From positions 1 through 33,792 of the IMG/VR virus record IMGVR_UViG_3300010334_000157: 33,792 nt of DNA. One strand, given 5' to 3'. Below, one piece after another: positions 22,429-29,137 of the stretch (position 1 is its first letter; the number at the start of each line of letters is the position of its first letter). The stretch comes from a virus. The position numbers and the translations under genes are program-made. The notes beneath the pieces are model-generated. The model was not told the DNA's origin, searched no databases, and worked only from the letters and a program-made list of their open reading frames with translations.

Positions 22429-23247
22429 ATGAATAACCAGACCGCACTTGTGGTCAAGCAAGAGGTTCCCTTCAGCGATATGGAACGCATGGCCCAGGCC
22501 ATTTCAAAAAGTGGTCTCTTCGGCATCAAGTCACCTGATCAGGCAGTTGCCCTGATGCTTGTGGCGCAGTCCGAGGGACGGCACCCCGCATCCGTTGCAA
22601 GCGAGTTTGACATCATCCAGGGGCGCCCTGCTCTCAAGAGTCAGGCGGCACTTGCGAGGTTCCAGCAGGCCGGCGGCAAGATCCAATGGCTAGTTAGAAA
22701 CGACAACGAGTGCGCGGCAGAGTTTCAACACCCTGCTGGAGGCACCCTCCAAGTCTCATGGACTATGGAAAGGGCCAATGCCGCTGGTCTCACCGGCAAG
22801 CAGACTTGGAAGCAGTACCCAACTGCCATGCTGTCGGCCAGGACGGTTGCCGAGGGCGTCAGGGCGGTCTTTCCTGCTTGTCTAAACGGAGTGTACCTAG
22901 CCGAGGAGGTGCAGGACTTTGATACCCGCCCCGCTACTGGCAAGTTTCAAGCGGTCAAGGCGTCTCTTCCCCCGATTAAGGAAGAGGTGATTGAGCAGGA
23001 GGTGGTTCAACTCATTGAGACGCCAAAGCCAGAAAAAGAAGACCCGCTTGAGGCTATCTACGAGCTTGCCGAGAACGACAAGGTTTCCGAGGAGCAGATC
23101 GTCGGCTTCCTTCGATCCAAGGACGCAATCAACTCCGAGGTTGAGTACCTAGCCGACATCAAGCCGGCAATCCTACGCCGCCTCAAGAAGTCATGGCCTC
23201 AAGTCATTGCCTTCGCAGTCGGCGCCAGCATGGAGGAGGCAGCATGA
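22429..23247 (+). CDS. recT: RecT-family single-strand annealing protein
   Basis: A 272-residue protein. The N-terminal two thirds contain the RecT-type core: MAQAISKSGLFGIKSPDQAV, LMLVAQSEGRHPAS, FDIIQGRPALKSQAALARFQ, WKQYPTAMLSARTVAEGVR and the closing GVYLAEEVQDF. These are conserved in phage annealases that coat and pair single strands at recombination or replication ends. The C-terminal ~90 residues are acidic and helical, as in relatives. The partner nuclease is encoded two genes on. The following gene starts in the ATGA overlap with a strong Shine-Dalgarno (GGAGGAGG). Confidence 0.85.
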   Translation: MNNQTALVVKQEVPFSDMERMAQAISKSGLFGIKSPDQAVALMLVAQSEGRHPASVASEFDIIQGRPALKSQAALARFQQAGGKIQWLVRNDNECAAEFQHPAGGTLQVSWTMERANAAGLTGKQTWKQYPTAMLSARTVAEGVRAVFPACLNGVYLAEEVQDFDTRPATGKFQAVKASLPPIKEEVIEQEVVQLIETPKPEKEDPLEAIYELAENDKVSEEQIVGFLRSKDAINSEVEYLADIKPAILRRLKKSWPQVIAFAVGASMEEAA

Positions 23248-23729
23248 GCGACTCAAACATCAAGTTTGTATTGGCTAAAACCAATATCCCTGACGGTCAA
23301 CTTCAGAAGCAACTCGACAAAGAGTTTGATGAAAATCTTTCAACCGAAATGGTGCGACTAATGCCTAAAAAGCATGGTGCATCTGTTGAGGCACAAGAGA
23401 CCCTAGTTCAAAGGGCTAAAGAAGCCTGTGAAGCCATTGAGTATCTTGCAAGTCACCAAAAAAAGTCTTGGTTTGATGTTGAAGAGGCAATCAATGCACA
23501 GATTGCTTCTTTAAGGTCAAAGCGTTCAATCGCAGAGTTTGAAAACAAGCAACTCCTGACTGCTCTTGGAGATGTTCGTCGATTCTTTTTTGACGATAAA
23601 CACCAAGAGGAAGTTAAGCGCCTATCAGAGTTTGTAGAGGTTTGTGAACGGCTTCAGAAACTTCAGACAAGCGGTTTCTTAAATGCCGTTGCCGATACAA
23701 TCTTGAAGTTGGAAGGAGGTGCAGCATGA
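23244..23729 (+). CDS. Unknown helical protein between RecT and nuclease
   Basis: A 161-residue protein starting at ATG 23244, preceded by GGAGGAGG and overlapping the recT stop. It is charged and mostly helical, with coiled-coil parts (SVEAQETLVQRAKEACEAIE, KRSIAEFENKQLLTALGDVR, EEVKRLSEFVEVCERLQKLQ). No motif was recognised. Its position inside the annealase/nuclease pair, coupled on both sides by ATGA, suggests a role in the same recombination step, such as a clamp or inhibitor, but this is context only. Confidence 0.6.
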   Translation: MSDSNIKFVLAKTNIPDGQLQKQLDKEFDENLSTEMVRLMPKKHGASVEAQETLVQRAKEACEAIEYLASHQKKSWFDVEEAINAQIASLRSKRSIAEFENKQLLTALGDVRRFFFDDKHQEEVKRLSEFVEVCERLQKLQTSGFLNAVADTILKLEGGAA

Positions 23730-24787
23730 AGAAAAACCTTACTCCTAACGAGAGGCAACTTGTTAAAGCGGTTCACGGGATTGGGCACCATGCCACCCTT
23801 TCCCCGTCAAAGTTGGACAAGCTCAACGAGTGCCTTCACTTTGAGGGCAAGCCTGCCGGACCTGCCGCAAAGCGTGGAACAGAAAAGATCCATGAACCTC
23901 TTGCTGATGCCTTTGAGCGCAACGAAAAGCCAACTGACCCTTTGCTTGCAAGGGCATGGGATCGAGCCAGAAAATACATTGTCAGGGTTGATGCCGTTGA
24001 GGAGAAGCTACAACTGCTTGATGACAATTTAGAGCAAGTCACCTTTGGTACTGCTGACCTTTATGGTCGCAGCGAAGGTGGAATGCTTGTCTTGGTGGAT
24101 TGGAAATCCGGGTCACAACCGGCCTCTTCCTACTATCACCAAATGGCGGCATACGCCTTGATGCTCATGGAGCAGGAGGACGAGGAGTCTTGCGAGGCAG
24201 TCATTGTTCCTGTTGATGACGATGAGAACGAGGCTTATTCAATAGGTTTTACAAGGGAGTCGGCAGCGGAAGTTGTCTGGCCCCTTATTGCAAGGATTAA
24301 GGCCAAAGCTGAAAATCCCCGCGAGAACCAGTTCTGCAACTGGTGCGCAAAGCGGAAGGAGTGTCCTGTCTGGACCATGCCGGCAAGTGAGGCAATCACG
24401 CCTGTTAGGGAGAAGCTCCTTTTCACCCAGGAGGATGCCGCCATCCGCCCCGAAGCCTATATGGATGCCTTTAAGAAACTTGAGGGCATCTTTGAAGATT
24501 GGGGCATCAAGGAGGCGTTGAAGCAGAAGCTAGAATCAGGCATTGCTGTCCCCGGTTGGAAGGTTCAGACCCGCAAGGGAACGCAGTCTGTTGCAGATGT
24601 TGAGGCAGTCCTGCGGGATGTCGTTAAGGAGGTTGGTTTTACCAAGGCTGCGCAGTTTGTAAAAATTGACGCAACCAAGATGGTCAAGGCCTGGGAGGGA
24701 TTTACCAAGAATCCCCTCCCCGTTGAGCTTGTCACCGGCGAAGGAACTACGGCACTTGTGCAGGACAAGAAGGGGGTGGCTAAATGA
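23726..24787 (+). CDS. Cas4/RecB-type PD-(D/E)XK exonuclease with predicted Fe-S cluster
   Basis: A 353-residue protein with a strong Shine-Dalgarno (AAGGAGG) and an ATGA overlap. The nuclease core shows GTADLYG (Asp111), LVLVDWKSG (Asp125, Lys127) and QMAAYALML (Gln139, Tyr143), the RecB motifs. Four Cys fit a 4Fe-4S staple as in Cas4, AddB and Exo5: Cys36 near the N-terminus and Cys204, Cys207, Cys213 (FCNWCAKRKECP). Such enzymes resect DNA ends and give single strands to RecT. The last ~130 residues (QSVADVEAVLRDVV) are a helical C-terminal region as in phage DUF2800-like proteins. Nuclease activity is inferred from motifs. Confidence 0.83.
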   Translation: MKKNLTPNERQLVKAVHGIGHHATLSPSKLDKLNECLHFEGKPAGPAAKRGTEKIHEPLADAFERNEKPTDPLLARAWDRARKYIVRVDAVEEKLQLLDDNLEQVTFGTADLYGRSEGGMLVLVDWKSGSQPASSYYHQMAAYALMLMEQEDEESCEAVIVPVDDDENEAYSIGFTRESAAEVVWPLIARIKAKAENPRENQFCNWCAKRKECPVWTMPASEAITPVREKLLFTQEDAAIRPEAYMDAFKKLEGIFEDWGIKEALKQKLESGIAVPGWKVQTRKGTQSVADVEAVLRDVVKEVGFTKAAQFVKIDATKMVKAWEGFTKNPLPVELVTGEGTTALVQDKKGVAK

Positions 24788-25017
24788 GTGCATCCCAAAA
24801 TGAGGCGATCCTAGAGGCGCTTCTCTCTGGTCAGAAACTCACGGCACTTGAGGCATTAAACCAGCACGGGTGCCTGCGCCTAGCCGCAAGGATTCACGAC
24901 CTCCGCAAGCAAGGTCACGACATCTACGAGGAGACCGTCACCCATAACGCGAAGCGTTATAGCCGGTACTACATACCGTCATGGAGCCTCAACCAAGGGG
25001 AGCTTGTTCTCGCATGA
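24784..25017 (+). CDS. Small helix-turn-helix protein
   Basis: A 77-residue protein beginning in the ATGA overlap with the nuclease. NEAILEALLSGQKLTALEAL then GCLRLAARIHDLRKQGHDIYEE is a helix-turn-helix of the small phage HTH type in which G-x-x-R-L-x-x-R-I-x-x-L is the recognition part, followed by a short wing (RYSRYYIPSW). Likely a DNA-binding accessory or regulator. Its stop overlaps the methyltransferase start. Confidence 0.7.
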   Translation: MSASQNEAILEALLSGQKLTALEALNQHGCLRLAARIHDLRKQGHDIYEETVTHNAKRYSRYYIPSWSLNQGELVLA

Positions 25018-26729
25018 GCCATGTGGATTCTACCCCTGCAATTAACACGGTTGAATGGTTCTTTGGGTATGGTGGAAACCATCTCGGACTTAAACGATGC
25101 CTCCCAAATCTGCGCCTCGTCGCTGCTTGTGAGATCGAAGAGTTCGCAATCGAAAACCTTCTTGCGAAAATGGAAAACGGATGGGTGGAGGCGGCTCCCA
25201 TTTGGTCGGATTGCCGCGCCTTCCCATGGGAACCATTCGTTGATCGAATTGACCTTTTTGTCGCTTCCTATCCATGCCAACCATTTTCTGCCGCAGGAAA
25301 GCGTGGAGGAGCAGATGACCCCAGACACCTCTGGCCCGTTGTCCTCAACTGGATATTACGAGTCAGACCTCTTTGCGTCTTCTGCGAGAACGTCGAAGGT
25401 CACGTTTCGTTGGGACTCTCCACAGTCATCAGCGATTTGGAAGAAGCGGGTTACCGAACGTCGTGGGGCATATTTAGCGCGAGTGAAGTCGGCGCTCCTC
25501 ATCAACGCAAGCGGGTATTCATCATGGCCCACCGCAAATGCGAGGGATTGGAAGGATGGAGACAGAGAATGCAACCAGAGAGCTTTGGATGCAGGTCATC
25601 AAAACACATTAGCGAGGGCAGCAACTTGTTGGCCCACGCCATGTGCAATGGAGGCGCAGAAGGCAGGGAGGTACGACAAGGGGCAGATGGGCCAAAGTCT
25701 ATCTGGAATGGCGAATCGTGGGGAACTTGGCCTAGCCGACCAGGGCAACCGCAATACGAGTGGGAGCCGCCAAGAGTCGTGGCTAACTCCAAAGAGCCGG
25801 GATTACCGAGGAGTGGAGAATCACATTCTTCGGAATGGCAAGAACATCCGAGCGACGGGTCAGGTATTCTCGGTGGGTCTTCCGACTCAAGCAATGATGG
25901 AGGAGCAGAAATCATGGGCGACTCCAAACACAATGGATTGCCTTCCTCCGAAATCTCCAGAGGCATTAGCGAGGAATCTGAAGAAGGGGGGATGCAGGAA
26001 CTTGAGGGAGGATGTCGTTTATCGAGTGGGAACTTGGGCGACTCCGAGGGCGGGTGCAACGGACAACTCCCGTCCCAACAACAAGGGTGGGATACCATTG
26101 GGCGACCAATGCAGGAGGGAGGGGAAGTGGGCGACCCCACAGGCACGGGATTACAAGTCGGGAGAGGATTTGGAATCCTGGAGCAAGAGGGCGGAGTTTC
26201 AGAAACAGAAGGGAGTCAACCTTCACCTTCCATTGAGCAGCCAATCAATTCATGTGGAGAAATCGCAGGGCAAGCTGAACCCTCGCTGGGTGGAAACCCT
26301 AATGGGACTACCTGTGGGGTGGGTCATGCCGAGTTGCGTGAACCCAATCACTCCTATAGCGGAGCCGATGCAGAGCATGGGGCAACAGAATTGGAACACT
26401 CCGAATGTGATGGATACCATAACTCCAACACGGGATCTGACAAAGACTCCCATGAAGGGTCATTGGGGGAAGTCAATGAACACAGGGAAGCTGTCGGAGC
26501 AAGTTATGCAGACTGGGGGCAACTGGATGACACCAGAGGCGCAGAACAGCACAGGATACCAAGTCAGCAATGGCAAGAAGATCCTGCGCCTTGGGAGTCA
26601 AGTGATGGACACCTCTACGTCTCCTGTGACAACCGAACCGACGAACTCCGACTCCTCGGAAATGGAGTTGTTCCAGCAACAGCAGAACTCGCTTTCAGAA
26701 CTCTCTGGGAGGAACTGACCAATGAGTAA
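25014..26729 (+). CDS. DNA cytosine-5 methyltransferase with very long low-complexity insert
   Basis: A 571-residue protein from ATG 25014 (ATGA overlap). It has canonical C5-methyltransferase motifs: FFGYGGNHLGLKR (I, residues 16-28), SYPCQPFSAAG (IV, catalytic Cys88), FCENVEG (VI, 123-129), EVGAPHQRKRVFI (VIII, 158-170) and LLGNGVVPATAELAFR (X, ~547-562). It should methylate cytosine in a specific site and protect phage DNA. The stretch between VIII and X is ~380 residues, far longer than usual, and Gly/Ser/Glu-rich with repeats such as VANSKEPGLP, GDSKHNGLPSS, GDSEGG. A second frame (+1) is open through the same DNA from 25021 to 26718 and looks more protein-like there. The gene's stop overlaps the next start. 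Confidence 0.75.
   Translation: MSHVDSTPAINTVEWFFGYGGNHLGLKRCLPNLRLVAACEIEEFAIENLLAKMENGWVEAAPIWSDCRAFPWEPFVDRIDLFVASYPCQPFSAAGKRGGADDPRHLWPVVLNWILRVRPLCVFCENVEGHVSLGLSTVISDLEEAGYRTSWGIFSASEVGAPHQRKRVFIMAHRKCEGLEGWRQRMQPESFGCRSSKHISEGSNLLAHAMCNGGAEGREVRQGADGPKSIWNGESWGTWPSRPGQPQYEWEPPRVVANSKEPGLPRSGESHSSEWQEHPSDGSGILGGSSDSSNDGGAEIMGDSKHNGLPSSEISRGISEESEEGGMQELEGGCRLSSGNLGDSEGGCNGQLPSQQQGWDTIGRPMQEGGEVGDPTGTGLQVGRGFGILEQEGGVSETEGSQPSPSIEQPINSCGEIAGQAEPSLGGNPNGTTCGVGHAELREPNHSYSGADAEHGATELEHSECDGYHNSNTGSDKDSHEGSLGEVNEHREAVGASYADWGQLDDTRGAEQHRIPSQQWQEDPAPWESSDGHLYVSCDNRTDELRLLGNGVVPATAELAFRTLWEELTNE
25021..26718 (+). CDS. Overlapping 565-codon ORF in the +1 frame of the methyltransferase, with W-x-T-P repeats
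   Basis: An ORF whose ATG lies seven bases after the methyltransferase ATG and whose stop lies eleven bases before the other stop. About residues 165-510 look like real protein: eight Trp boxes, WPTA at 25525, WPTP 25630, WLTP 25780, WATP 25915, 26035 and 26128, WNTP 26392, WMTP 26524, often followed by x-x-x-D (SRDYRG, NTMD, ARDYKSG), and the segment LNPRWVETLMGLPVGW at 26275-26322. I know these motifs from phage proteins linked to cytosine methyltransferases. The first ~160 residues, opposite motifs I-VI, look less ordered. Either it is an expressed overlapping gene or target-recognition part, or it is a shadow kept open by the other frame's bias. Expression is unproven. Confidence 0.4.
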   Translation: MWILPLQLTRLNGSLGMVETISDLNDASQICASSLLVRSKSSQSKTFLRKWKTDGWRRLPFGRIAAPSHGNHSLIELTFLSLPIHANHFLPQESVEEQMTPDTSGPLSSTGYYESDLFASSARTSKVTFRWDSPQSSAIWKKRVTERRGAYLARVKSALLINASGYSSWPTANARDWKDGDRECNQRALDAGHQNTLARAATCWPTPCAMEAQKAGRYDKGQMGQSLSGMANRGELGLADQGNRNTSGSRQESWLTPKSRDYRGVENHILRNGKNIRATGQVFSVGLPTQAMMEEQKSWATPNTMDCLPPKSPEALARNLKKGGCRNLREDVVYRVGTWATPRAGATDNSRPNNKGGIPLGDQCRREGKWATPQARDYKSGEDLESWSKRAEFQKQKGVNLHLPLSSQSIHVEKSQGKLNPRWVETLMGLPVGWVMPSCVNPITPIAEPMQSMGQQNWNTPNVMDTITPTRDLTKTPMKGHWGKSMNTGKLSEQVMQTGGNWMTPEAQNSTGYQVSNGKKILRLGSQVMDTSTSPVTTEPTNSDSSEMELFQQQQNSLSELSGRN

Positions 26730-26922
26730 CCGACTAAAAGCCTATTTTGACAAAGAGCAAGTGCCGGCGGCAGCGCCGAGCTTTCCGAAGCCAGACCTCA
26801 CCATCATGGGTCTTTACGCCTTGATCCACGAAATGGAGCAGGACCGGCGTGAATTGCAGCAGGCTCTTGATGACCAGATCGCAGAGGTGGCCCGTCTCAA
26901 TCAACTCCTCTCTGGACAATGA
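26722..26922 (+). CDS. Small hypothetical coiled-coil protein
   Basis: A 66-residue ORF whose ATG overlaps the methyltransferase stop by eight bases. Its C-terminal half is a coiled coil (MGLYALIHEMEQDRRELQQAL then DDQIAEVARLNQLL); the start is Pro-rich. No family recognised. Its stop overlaps the next ATG as ATGA. Confidence 0.55.
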   Translation: MSNRLKAYFDKEQVPAAAPSFPKPDLTIMGLYALIHEMEQDRRELQQALDDQIAEVARLNQLLSGQ

Positions 26923-27236
26923 AAAAGCGCAAGCCTCTTACCCTGGCGCAAAAGCAAACCAAGAAGGAATTAGCAGTCCTTCGTAAGCGCACCCCGGAAG
27001 AATGGGTTGAGCGTATCAACGCCCTGCCCACCGAGATCATACCCCATGCGGCTCGACTCGTCTGGTGGGATTGGTTTGCCCTGCGGATGGTTTCCAAGCG
27101 GTGGCCCCATTTGGACGCTTTTCTCAAGTTCAACACGCAGGAGGTGGAATTTACCCCCTTGTGCGAGGCGCTCATCACTCTTGGCTACCCGGATGGGATA
27201 GCCAGAAACCGTGCAGACAACCCCCAATCGCATTAA
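26919..27236 (+). CDS. Small hypothetical basic protein
   Basis: A 105-residue protein with a Lys/Arg-rich N-terminus (MKKRKPLTLAQKQTKKELAVL), then Trp-rich helices (LVWWDWFALRMVSKRWPHLD) and an end FTPLCEALITLGYPDGIARN. It might bind nucleic acid through the basic arm, but no domain is recognised. It belongs to a row of short genes between the methyltransferase and the replication protein. Confidence 0.55.
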   Translation: MKKRKPLTLAQKQTKKELAVLRKRTPEEWVERINALPTEIIPHAARLVWWDWFALRMVSKRWPHLDAFLKFNTQEVEFTPLCEALITLGYPDGIARNRADNPQSH

Positions 27237-27238
27237 CC

Positions 27239-27544
27239 ATGAGCAATTCAAATCAAGACCCCCTCTGGCTGCAACGCTGGAAAACGGAAGGCATTCGATA
27301 CCTTGGCAAGGATGATAATGGACATATTGACCACCTGGACCGTTGGCATCAGGCGTACAAGGCAGGGAATGCCGACGGGTATACTGAAGGCCGGCACGAG
27401 GCTACCGAGTTAGCCGTTGGTCTCCTCTATCATCAGTACCAGCACCTCAAGACCTTCCACGGCAAGGAAGACGAGCGCTGCCTGCTACTCAAAAACGCCA
27501 TTCTTGAGATCCGCCACGCCCAGGCAGAGGAGATGGACCAATGA
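27239..27544 (+). CDS. Small hypothetical helical protein
   Basis: A 101-residue ORF from ATG 27239, two bases after the preceding stop; earlier in-frame codons are inside the upstream gene. It is polar with many His (HIDHLDRWHQAYKAGN, LLYHQYQHLKTFH, EIRHAQAEEMDQ). No motif recognised. Coupled by ATGA to the next gene. Confidence 0.5.
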   Translation: MSNSNQDPLWLQRWKTEGIRYLGKDDNGHIDHLDRWHQAYKAGNADGYTEGRHEATELAVGLLYHQYQHLKTFHGKEDERCLLLKNAILEIRHAQAEEMDQ

Positions 27545-27849
27545 GTGAGGAGCGTCCACCAGCATCAATTAACGGCAAACCGAACCCAGCTTACAGGGTT
27601 TGGTATAGCCAATCCGAGCAAGGCAAGGCCGTAAAGAAGCGGTATGCCCAATCTGCCAAAGGAAAAGAATGCCAAAGGCGATTTTACAAGAGCGCAAAGG
27701 GTCAGATTGCATGGCGTAAGGCTAGGGAAAAAAGAATCCAAAAAGACCCCATTTCTTATGTTGATAAGATGGTAACTCACCTCAAATTTGCCGGCGCCTA
27801 CAACGATTACCAAAACGATGATTTTGACATGGGAGGGCAGTATGAATAG
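27541..27849 (+). CDS. Small basic repeat protein
   Basis: A 102-residue protein with three consecutive copies of a ~13-residue basic unit: YSQSEQGKAVKKR, YAQSAKGKECQRR, FYKSAKGQIAWRK. Each has Y/F, S, G-K/Q and a run of Lys/Arg. Such S-x-x-GK repeats occur in short phage proteins and suggest nucleic-acid contact. The C-terminus is acidic (YNDYQNDDFDMGG). It overlaps the resolvase-like gene by eight bases. Confidence 0.55.
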   Translation: MSEERPPASINGKPNPAYRVWYSQSEQGKAVKKRYAQSAKGKECQRRFYKSAKGQIAWRKAREKRIQKDPISYVDKMVTHLKFAGAYNDYQNDDFDMGGQYE

Positions 27850-28201
27850 CAGAGCCAAGGGGTGCCGAGGAGAACGCGAATGGCGCGATATGCTGCGAGA
27901 GGCAGGCTTCCTTAAAGCCCGTCGAGGGCAGCAGTTTTCTGGAGGAAGTGAATCTCCAGATGTCGTTTGCGAAGAACTACCTACCATACATTTTGAAGTA
28001 AAGAGAGTAGAAACAGGCAACCCCTATAACTGGCATGACCAGGCAAGGGTAGATGCCGGCTCAAAGACCCCTGTAGTCGTTCACAAGCGCAATGGTCGAA
28101 AGTGGCTTGTCATTATGTCTGGGGAGGATTGGTTGGAGATGATCAAGGATACTGACTTGGTTCATCAAATTGACGACACAGAAATTAAAAGGGCCTACTA
28201 A
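27842..28201 (+). CDS. PD-(D/E)XK nuclease, Holliday-junction-resolvase-like
   Basis: A 119-residue protein from ATG 27842 with KGCRGEREWRDMLREAGF (Glu11), SESPDVVC (Asp40) and HFEVKRVE (Glu52, Lys54): the E, D, E-x-K set of PD-(D/E)XK nucleases in the spacing of archaeal Hjc-type and phage resolvase-like proteins (G-x-x-x-E-R-E; ARRGQQ; S-P-D; F-E-V-K). The likely role is cutting branched DNA from recombination or replication before packaging. The later part VVVHKRNGRKWLVIMS completes the fold. It precedes the replication protein gene with no gap. Confidence 0.75.
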   Translation: MNSRAKGCRGEREWRDMLREAGFLKARRGQQFSGGSESPDVVCEELPTIHFEVKRVETGNPYNWHDQARVDAGSKTPVVVHKRNGRKWLVIMSGEDWLEMIKDTDLVHQIDDTEIKRAY

Positions 28202-29137
28202 ATGAACCACTACCCTCACCACATTGGCGACTTCAACAACGGGACCCGACACCTTACTCGGATTGAAAGGTCAATTTATCGAGACTTGATTGAACTCTAC
28301 TACGACACCGAAGCTGCCCTACCCTCCGATATTGATGTTCTCGCCAGGCGCATCATTGCTCGTAGCGAGGAGGAGAGAACGGCACTTGTTTCCATTTTGA
28401 GTGAGTTTTTTACTCTTGATGAAGGTGCCTACAAGCATACTCGATGCGACGAAGAGATAGCTGCCTATCAGTCTCGCGTGGAGTCTGCTCGTAGCAACGG
28501 ACAGAGAGGAGGGCGCCCTTCAAAACCCAGTCGGTTAGCAAAAATAACCGACTCGGTTAATTCCGCTAACCCAGCAATAACCGGATGCAAAGCTAACCAG
28601 AACCAGAACCAGAACCAATATATACCCCCTACCCCCAAGGGGGATGAGAAACGCATCTGTCACGAACCAGTCACGAATCGTGACCTAGAGAAGAAAGAGA
28701 AGACAAGAATAGAGGAGAAAGAACAAGACTTCCTAGCATTCTGGCAGGCATACCCTCGCAAGACCGGCAAAGGTGCAGCATGGAAATCTTGGAAGAATGC
28801 CTCCTTGCCCAAACTGGAGGTGATCCTCAACGCAATCCGTAAAGCCCGTCAGTCCCCGGATTGGCAAAAGGAACGAGGCGCTTTTATCCCCCATCCCGCT
28901 ACATGGCTAAATCAGGCACGTTGGGAGGACGAGGGCATTGATTACGCTGCTTTGGCAGGAAAACGCGATACAAGGCATCCCTCGGCTCAAGAAAGGCCCA
29001 TTCAGGTAGACGAGCAGGATGCCCTTTCATGGCTAGAGGATAATTACTCGGTTTCGGATCGAACCATCACCTTCAAGGAATGGCCCAAGGACATTCAGTC
29101 TCAATACCTCAACTCCAAGCAACTCCAAGCGGCATGA
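28202..29137 (+). CDS. Replication initiation-like protein (DUF1376/YdaU type)
   Basis: A 311-residue protein. HHIGDFNNGTRHLTRIERSIY then DLIELYYDTEAALPSDID is the opening of the DUF1376 (YdaU-like) domain found in phage replication proteins. A linker with NQNQNQNQ and a highly charged segment (EKKEKTRIEEKEQ) follows. The C-terminal domain FLAFWQAYPRKTGKGAAWKSW and GAFIPHPATWLNQARWED is the usual DNA-binding end of these proteins, similar to a primosome component. It probably recruits the host helicase at the phage origin. No phage polymerase is visible, which fits host-dependent replication. It starts directly after the previous stop. Confidence 0.8.
   Translation: MNHYPHHIGDFNNGTRHLTRIERSIYRDLIELYYDTEAALPSDIDVLARRIIARSEEERTALVSILSEFFTLDEGAYKHTRCDEEIAAYQSRVESARSNGQRGGRPSKPSRLAKITDSVNSANPAITGCKANQNQNQNQYIPPTPKGDEKRICHEPVTNRDLEKKEKTRIEEKEQDFLAFWQAYPRKTGKGAAWKSWKNASLPKLEVILNAIRKARQSPDWQKERGAFIPHPATWLNQARWEDEGIDYAALAGKRDTRHPSAQERPIQVDEQDALSWLEDNYSVSDRTITFKEWPKDIQSQYLNSKQLQAA
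28595..28617 (+). repeat. Hexanucleotide AACCAG repeat in the replication gene
   Basis: Nearly four copies of AACCAG encode the NQNQNQNQ linker of the replication protein. Replication slippage could lengthen or shorten the linker by two residues at a time without changing the frame. Confidence 0.75.

Follow-up and report, generated by a model that had tools for sequence, protein, structure and literature searches.

The cytosine-5 DNA methyltransferase locus described here very probably encodes, in two nested reading frames (A and B) of the same DNA, the alpha and beta subunits of a single enzyme. It lies in a viral genome fragment, IMG/VR record IMGVR_UViG_3300010334_000157, of which positions 1 to 33,792 were analysed (33,792 nt, hereafter the window). 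The DNA itself displays the split of domains between the frames, a conserved relation of one frame to the other, selection against stop codons in both, and an exchange of amino acid constraint between them along the gene. Frame A (alpha) would provide the AdoMet-binding and catalytic domain, with motifs I to VIII and X, and frame B (beta) the target-recognition modules and motif IX. One message would give two proteins, with ribosomes initiating at two codons seven bases apart, and the chains would then assemble, A giving the large domain and B the small, DNA-reading domain of an enzyme predicted to methylate DNA. Selection at the protein level would act on each frame mainly over its own domain, the remainder being kept mainly stop-free so that the chain can be completed.

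The features of the locus are listed in Table 1. No stop interrupts frame A between ATG 24981 or ATG 25014 and the stop at 26729, the upstream in-frame ATG and an in-frame GTG at 25023 being alternative starts, and frame B runs without a stop from ATG 25021 to a stop at 26718. Both long frames had been described in an earlier note on this DNA, as had the presence in frame A of methyltransferase motifs I, IV, VI, VIII and X in that order, and the two descriptions were borne out. In any other gene of the window the longest +1 open run was at most 128 codons. The TGA of the upstream ORF overlaps the ATG of frame A at 25014. The methyltransferase sits within a recombination/replication block (22429-29137) that includes a RecT-like annealing protein, an exonuclease, a RusA-like resolvase and a primosomal protein.

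Table 1. Features of the nested methyltransferase locus, with positions given in the window.
Feature	Position	Strand	Remarks
Upstream ORF, 77 aa	24784-25017	+	phrog_4973 (unknown function); same frame as B
Frame A, putative alpha subunit of cytosine-5 DNA methyltransferase, 571 aa	25014-26729	+	PF00145, phrog_363, PDB profile match
Start cassette ATGAGCCATGTG	25014-25025	+	A ATG 25014, B ATG 25021, alternative A GTG 25023
Frame B (+1), putative beta subunit, 565 aa	25021-26718	+	recognition modules and motif IX; phrog_1008
Frame A motifs I to VIII, catalytic domain	25050-25532	+	motif positions; omega A 0.34
Frame A motif I	25050-25091	+	
Frame A motif IV (PCQ)	25272-25289	+	
Frame A motif VI (ENV)	25386-25400	+	
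Frame B helix SSAIWKKRVTERRGAYLARVKSA, overlapping A just before motif VIII	25426-25494	+	A synonymous divergence 0.34 of expectation; model
Frame A motif VIII	25491-25532	+	
Frame B module 1 (WPTA...)	25525-25629	+	
Frame A Gly/Ser/Glu-rich link, VIII to X	25542-26624	+	stop-free, nearly unconstrained as protein
Frame B module 2 (WPTP...)	25630-25779	+	
Frame B module 3 (WLTP...)	25780-25914	+	identical in L004
Frame B module 4 (WATP...)	25915-26034	+	identical in L004
Frame B module 5 (WATP...)	26035-26127	+	identical in L004
Frame B module 6 (WATP...)	26128-26274	+	
Frame B motif IX, LNPRWVETLMGLPVGW	26275-26322	+	
Frame B, two more WxTP modules past motif IX	26392-26600 (end approximate)	+	WNTP 26392, WMTP 26524
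Frame A motif X, DELRLLGNGVVPATAELAF	26640-26696	+	

Frame A matched PF00145 (E 2.3e-30) over residues 22-190 only (profile positions 2-167 of 324) and phrog_363 (E 1e-52), and its profile matched residues 7-179 of M.HhaI in the PDB. The Pfam and PDB matches both stop after motif VIII. Motifs I, IV, VI and VIII are ordered in one chain, consistent with membership of PF00145, while the recognition region and motif IX that belong between VIII and X are absent from frame A and present in frame B. Inside the link that occupies this position in A, RPGQPQYEWEPPR is a conserved stretch (25737-25775). Over 25737-25793 conservation is high in both readings of the DNA, for RPGQPQYEWEPPRVVANS in A and for the NTSGSRQESWLTP region in B; the GQPQYEWEPPR block of split relatives is instead located right before motif X.

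Frame B matched the phrog_1008 family, labelled 'DNA methyltransferase', with an E value of 3.3e-32. Its LNPRWVETLMGLPVGW block, noticed previously, was found where expected, and among 23 relatives L-N-P-x-W is invariant and MGL..GW nearly so; the block LNPxWVExLMGLPxGW is what motif IX ought to resemble. The DNA of motif VIII does read as KSALLINASGYSSWPT in frame B, at 25486-25533 and not, as first given, at 25482-25530. Exactly eight W-x-T-P/A boxes were counted, the number claimed before, and the supposed linkage of the ANS/GDS repeats of A with the WxTP boxes of B also held, there being one DNA repeat with two readings; in frame A the boxes read MAHRK, LAHAM, VANSK, MGDSK, LGDSE, VGDPT, LEHSE and LDDTR. 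The modules that carry these boxes, six before motif IX and two after it, may bind target DNA, perhaps at several sites. A position downstream of motif IX is unusual for a recognition module, and a WMTP-type module after motif IX occurs also in two relatives, L007 and L011. To the earlier account are added the motif IX of B and the near absence of amino acid constraint on the Gly/Ser-rich middle of A. AlphaFold2 gave a pLDDT of 58.6 for a compact B (L123, 58 sequences) and of 56.5 for a single-chain relative (L335), with low confidence in the recognition part of each; the best-predicted helix of the frame B model was SSAIWKKRVTERRGAYLARVKSA (pLDDT 80-90).

In two relatives, gp76 of the mycobacteriophage Rita (L196) and a gene of a Pelosinus MAG (L335), both halves are found in one frame and on one chain, which comprises motifs I-VIII, LLPTP/WPTP modules, LAPAFSEWMMGWPAGW or LNPDWVECLMGFPIGW, and motif X. 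The match of both proteins to phrog_363, the A family, covers their whole length, and that to phrog_1008, the B family, covers residues 196-388 (Rita gp76, E 2e-61) or 189-400 (L335, E 7e-25). Profile-profile alignment placed A on the N-half of the single-chain relatives (E 6e-58) and B on their C-half, with modules, IX and X (E 5e-20), the LNPRWVETLMGLPVGW of frame B aligning with LAPAFSEWMMGWPAGW of the single-chain enzymes. These relatives and alignments support the target-recognition content that had been proposed for B. A single hhalign run (A1 versus A6) aligned motif X alone and was set aside. Another locus, L031, was considered as a natural fusion and rejected, as it is without motif VIII and looks rearranged; it was replaced by L335 and Rita gp76. 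Over the catalytic half of the single-frame Pelosinus gene there is an open +1 frame of 164 codons (L335:2417-2909), perhaps a relic of an earlier nested layout.

Frame B might instead be translated as a separate overprinted protein that is no subunit of the methyltransferase, such as a factor that binds DNA or counteracts restriction. Consistent with this, it had no Pfam, NCBIfam or PADLOC match, and its profile had no sequence match in the PDB. This reading is nevertheless considered quite improbable, because these modules and motif IX stand between VIII and X in the single-chain relatives too, and A has neither a motif IX of its own nor a matched recognition region.

When synonymous codons were permuted with the A protein and its codons fixed, 8.5 B stops were expected in this gene, or about 11 with the codon usage of the window's other genes, and the observed B open run of 566 codons was reached by none of 20,000 permutations; in the comparison with codon-shuffled A that the earlier note had proposed, B therefore exceeds its controls. 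Stops in B across homologs, which that note had regarded as telling against dual coding, numbered 0 versus 103 ± 8 expected over motifs I-VIII of 22 homologs, with the +2 frame at expectation. Among 36 representatives of less than 75% identity, selected by frame A only, the +1 frame was fully open over motifs I-VIII in 31 versus 1.5 expected, and the +2 control was at chance. Not fully open were L143, which has a single stop, and L027-L030, where B starts later and its frame has stops only in the DNA ahead of that start. Over the recognition region of 146 loci, with the B protein and its codons fixed, there were 2 A-frame stops versus 850 ± 21 expected, and 1325 in the third frame versus 1284 expected, slightly above; in all such counts the loci are partly non-independent, since homologs share ancestry. 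Stops are avoided, then, in A and in B, and not in the third frame.

Substitution rates, taken from independent close pairs, gave the same picture. A-synonymous changes that create a B stop occurred at 0.003/0.008 per site (transitions/transversions) versus about 0.07/0.06 for others, and B-synonymous changes that create an A stop at 0.008/0.009 per site versus 0.06-0.14 for others. This is a depletion of about 7- to 26-fold over motifs I-VIII and of 7- to 17-fold over the recognition region, and no comparable depletion of stop-making changes was seen for the third frame in the same pairs.

Constraint on amino acids, a per-frame comparison likewise suggested beforehand, swaps between the frames. 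Over the recognition region omega B was 0.30 and omega A 1.19, and over motifs I-VIII omega A was 0.34 (0.31-0.37). The corresponding omega B of 0.82 (0.75-0.88) is weak evidence of constraint because omega was obtained by simple counting, with a baseline that varies with codon position and is not exactly 1 (+2 control 1.76). Silent divergence in A was uneven, amounting to 0.34 of expectation under the best-predicted B helix, 0.6-0.7 under other helices, and 1.4-1.8 where B is predicted to be disordered, and the N half of B is therefore partly constrained as a protein and the middle of A hardly. When conservative and radical changes in B were compared over motifs I-VIII, no clear signal emerged. 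The similarity of B among relatives relative to codon-permuted controls was dropped as proof of amino acid selection, since similarity in the +2 frame rises too, through shared ancestry.

These patterns bear on a second alternative, a programmed frameshift, in which translation would begin at the A start, move +1 into B near motif VIII and return before motif X to yield an ordinary single chain. A chain composed of A (I-VIII), B (modules, IX) and A (X) would be a canonical enzyme, and the single-chain relatives have exactly such a domain order, yet we regard the mechanism as most unlikely. Two shifts would be required in most loci, since frame A holds motif X in 154 of the 163 viral relatives. 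A frameshift gene has to stay open only where each frame is used, and no selection is predicted on B before VIII or on the middle of A, but both are strongly kept open. B also has a conserved start 2-7 nt from that of A in the relatives examined, and in the late-starting L027-L030 the confinement of B stops to the DNA upstream of the B start again speaks for a start of its own. Of the earlier suggestion of a target-recognition part reached by frameshifting, the recognition part is supported, while a frameshift as the only mechanism leaves unexplained the openness of B ahead of the recognition region and of A throughout it, and the start codon that each frame retains; separate initiation is most likely how B is reached. 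A shadow frame, held open merely by the composition and repeats of frame A, deserves hardly any credence: the middle of A is of low complexity and WxTP and GDS/ANS are a single DNA repeat in two frames, but B is better conserved there than A, the permutations and the 22 homologs lead one to expect many B stops where none is found, in single-chain methyltransferases it is the C-terminal half that B matches, and strong stop avoidance in both frames with none in the third excludes this option and supports true dual coding, the remaining one of the three raised earlier.

Among the start pairs of the nested subunits, ATGTGGA, in which the B ATG is followed two bases later by an A GTG, was found in 98 of 160 loci, and in 52 of these 98 the GTG is the first possible A start after an A-frame stop. 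In another layout, ATGACATGG, the A ATG lies five bases past that of B, and in the layout of the window, ATGAGCCATGTGG, it lies seven bases ahead. The nearest GGAG in the window is 18 nt from the ATG of B, so that initiation of B would depend on coupling with either A or the upstream gene; termination-reinitiation at the TGA of the upstream ORF could supply both starts. In some relatives (L027, L029, L030, L193, L296, L336, L348 and others) the start of B lies within the A gene, and B often begins with M...EQLTLF, which looks like the beta-clamp-binding pentapeptide (QL[SD]LF). Such a clamp-like motif was found in the first ~120 B residues of 16 of 70 genome loci, in 13 of them within the first 16 residues, and it overlaps the TIDLIS of A, ahead of motif IV.

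Among 166 distinct viral loci, the +1 frame is where motif IX lies in 163, and in 158 of the set B has no stop from the point at which the A domain begins. Motif X is in frame B in nine of the 163 viral relatives and in four genome relatives besides. Bacterial and archaeal genome loci, which were picked by the peptide LNPxWVExLM alone and hence without bias on the frame of A, had the +1 arrangement in 70 of 72 cases, with one single-frame locus and one odd. For the +1 frame of phage N15, similar sequence was present in 210 phage records. Hundreds of loci in viruses and prophages apparently share the nested arrangement, often with only one frame annotated. Among annotated phages, Rita and CheeseTouch show the single-frame layout, Thanksgivukkah (78/77) and Upyo (54/53) a split layout with overlap or gap, and the remainder are nested, with both frames annotated in Paenibacillus phage Bloom, A alone in N15 (gene 58) and C75C1, and B alone in Pseudomonas phage phPA-G. 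In the latter (VB_PaD_phPA-G, L197, 1439-2167) B is entered as 'hypothetical protein' and the A methyltransferase over the same DNA is unannotated. In N15 gene 58 (L195:1592-2317) it is the nested +1 frame that is unannotated, with a motif IX, GQLNPHHSRWLMGLPVEWA, and a match to phrog_1008 (E 1.6e-28). Both frames are annotated as methyltransferases in Paenibacillus larvae phages, for which two such genes have been listed, their overlap not being remarked on (PMC6070908).

In L004 the catalytic domain is only 52% identical to that of the window, yet modules 3, 4 and 5 are identical. The number of modules per B ranges from 0 to 8 among relatives, with a median length of 40 aa, and near-identical modules are shared by loci whose catalytic domains are 48-58% identical; of 324 near-identical module pairs, 227 occupy differing ordinal positions. 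We put forward tentatively, as an idea falling somewhat short of probable, that these loci form a widespread viral class in which beta consists of as many as eight exchangeable recognition modules in shuffled succession, where swaps of segments open in two frames would change or add specificities, and overlapping AUG and GUG codons would be served by one ribosome-binding site. The multispecific methyltransferases of the phages SPR, phi3T and rho11s (see Behrens 1987, as cited in PMC4081073) carry tandem exchangeable recognition modules of ~40 residues between VIII and IX. Tandem exchangeable modules of ~40 aa are likewise found in the window family; those enzymes, however, are single-frame and single-chain, whereas the window has two frames, two modules after motif IX, and a specificity that is putative.

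Methyltransferases of two chains provide the closest comparisons. The small-chain gene of M.EcoHK31I is encoded in another frame, inside the large-chain gene. Like M.EcoHK31I (and M.EaeI), the window has motifs I-VIII and X on A and motif IX on a second chain. In M.EcoHK31I motifs I-VIII and X are on the larger chain and IX on the smaller second chain, and the predicted recognition domain was placed in the large chain (PMC3404938), whereas the modules of the window are in frame B and constrained there. Further differences from M.EcoHK31I are that B is about as long as A (565 versus 571 aa) and starts 7 nt from it, and that there are here up to eight repeat modules, in a layout found in many viral and prophage lineages. 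M.AquI and other split enzymes have motifs I-VIII on one chain and the recognition part with IX on the other (PMC3404938), X being on the latter as well. The nine viral and four genome relatives with motif X in frame B have this M.AquI layout, but frame A holds the motif X of the window, and the overlap of its two genes is almost complete. The ShiLan domain is an HNH endonuclease that an insertion within a phage methylase encodes in another frame (PMC11855218); it too is a second frame inside a phage methylase gene, but one that represents the homing nuclease of an insertion element and not an enzyme subunit. The PHROG families 363 and 1008, both labelled DNA methyltransferase, match A and B, and their labels are silent on the shared stretch of DNA and on the complementary halves. 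What distinguishes the window from the two-chain enzymes is the recognition part in B, the near-complete overlap of 565 codons, the paired starts and the very wide viral spread. No earlier account of nested methyltransferase frames in phages was found in the open-access literature, of which coverage was incomplete.

Provided that A and B are both translated, many entries for a 'DNA methyltransferase' in phages and prophages would give only half of the enzyme, the missing recognition half being an unannotated +1 frame of the same DNA. This would mislead enzyme cloning, the prediction of phage-protected sites, and gene callers that forbid long overlaps. The locus is also a long same-strand overlap in which two frames trade places as the carrier of constraint, and since single-frame, split and nested forms all occur among its relatives, one can trace stepwise how an overlapping gene arose.
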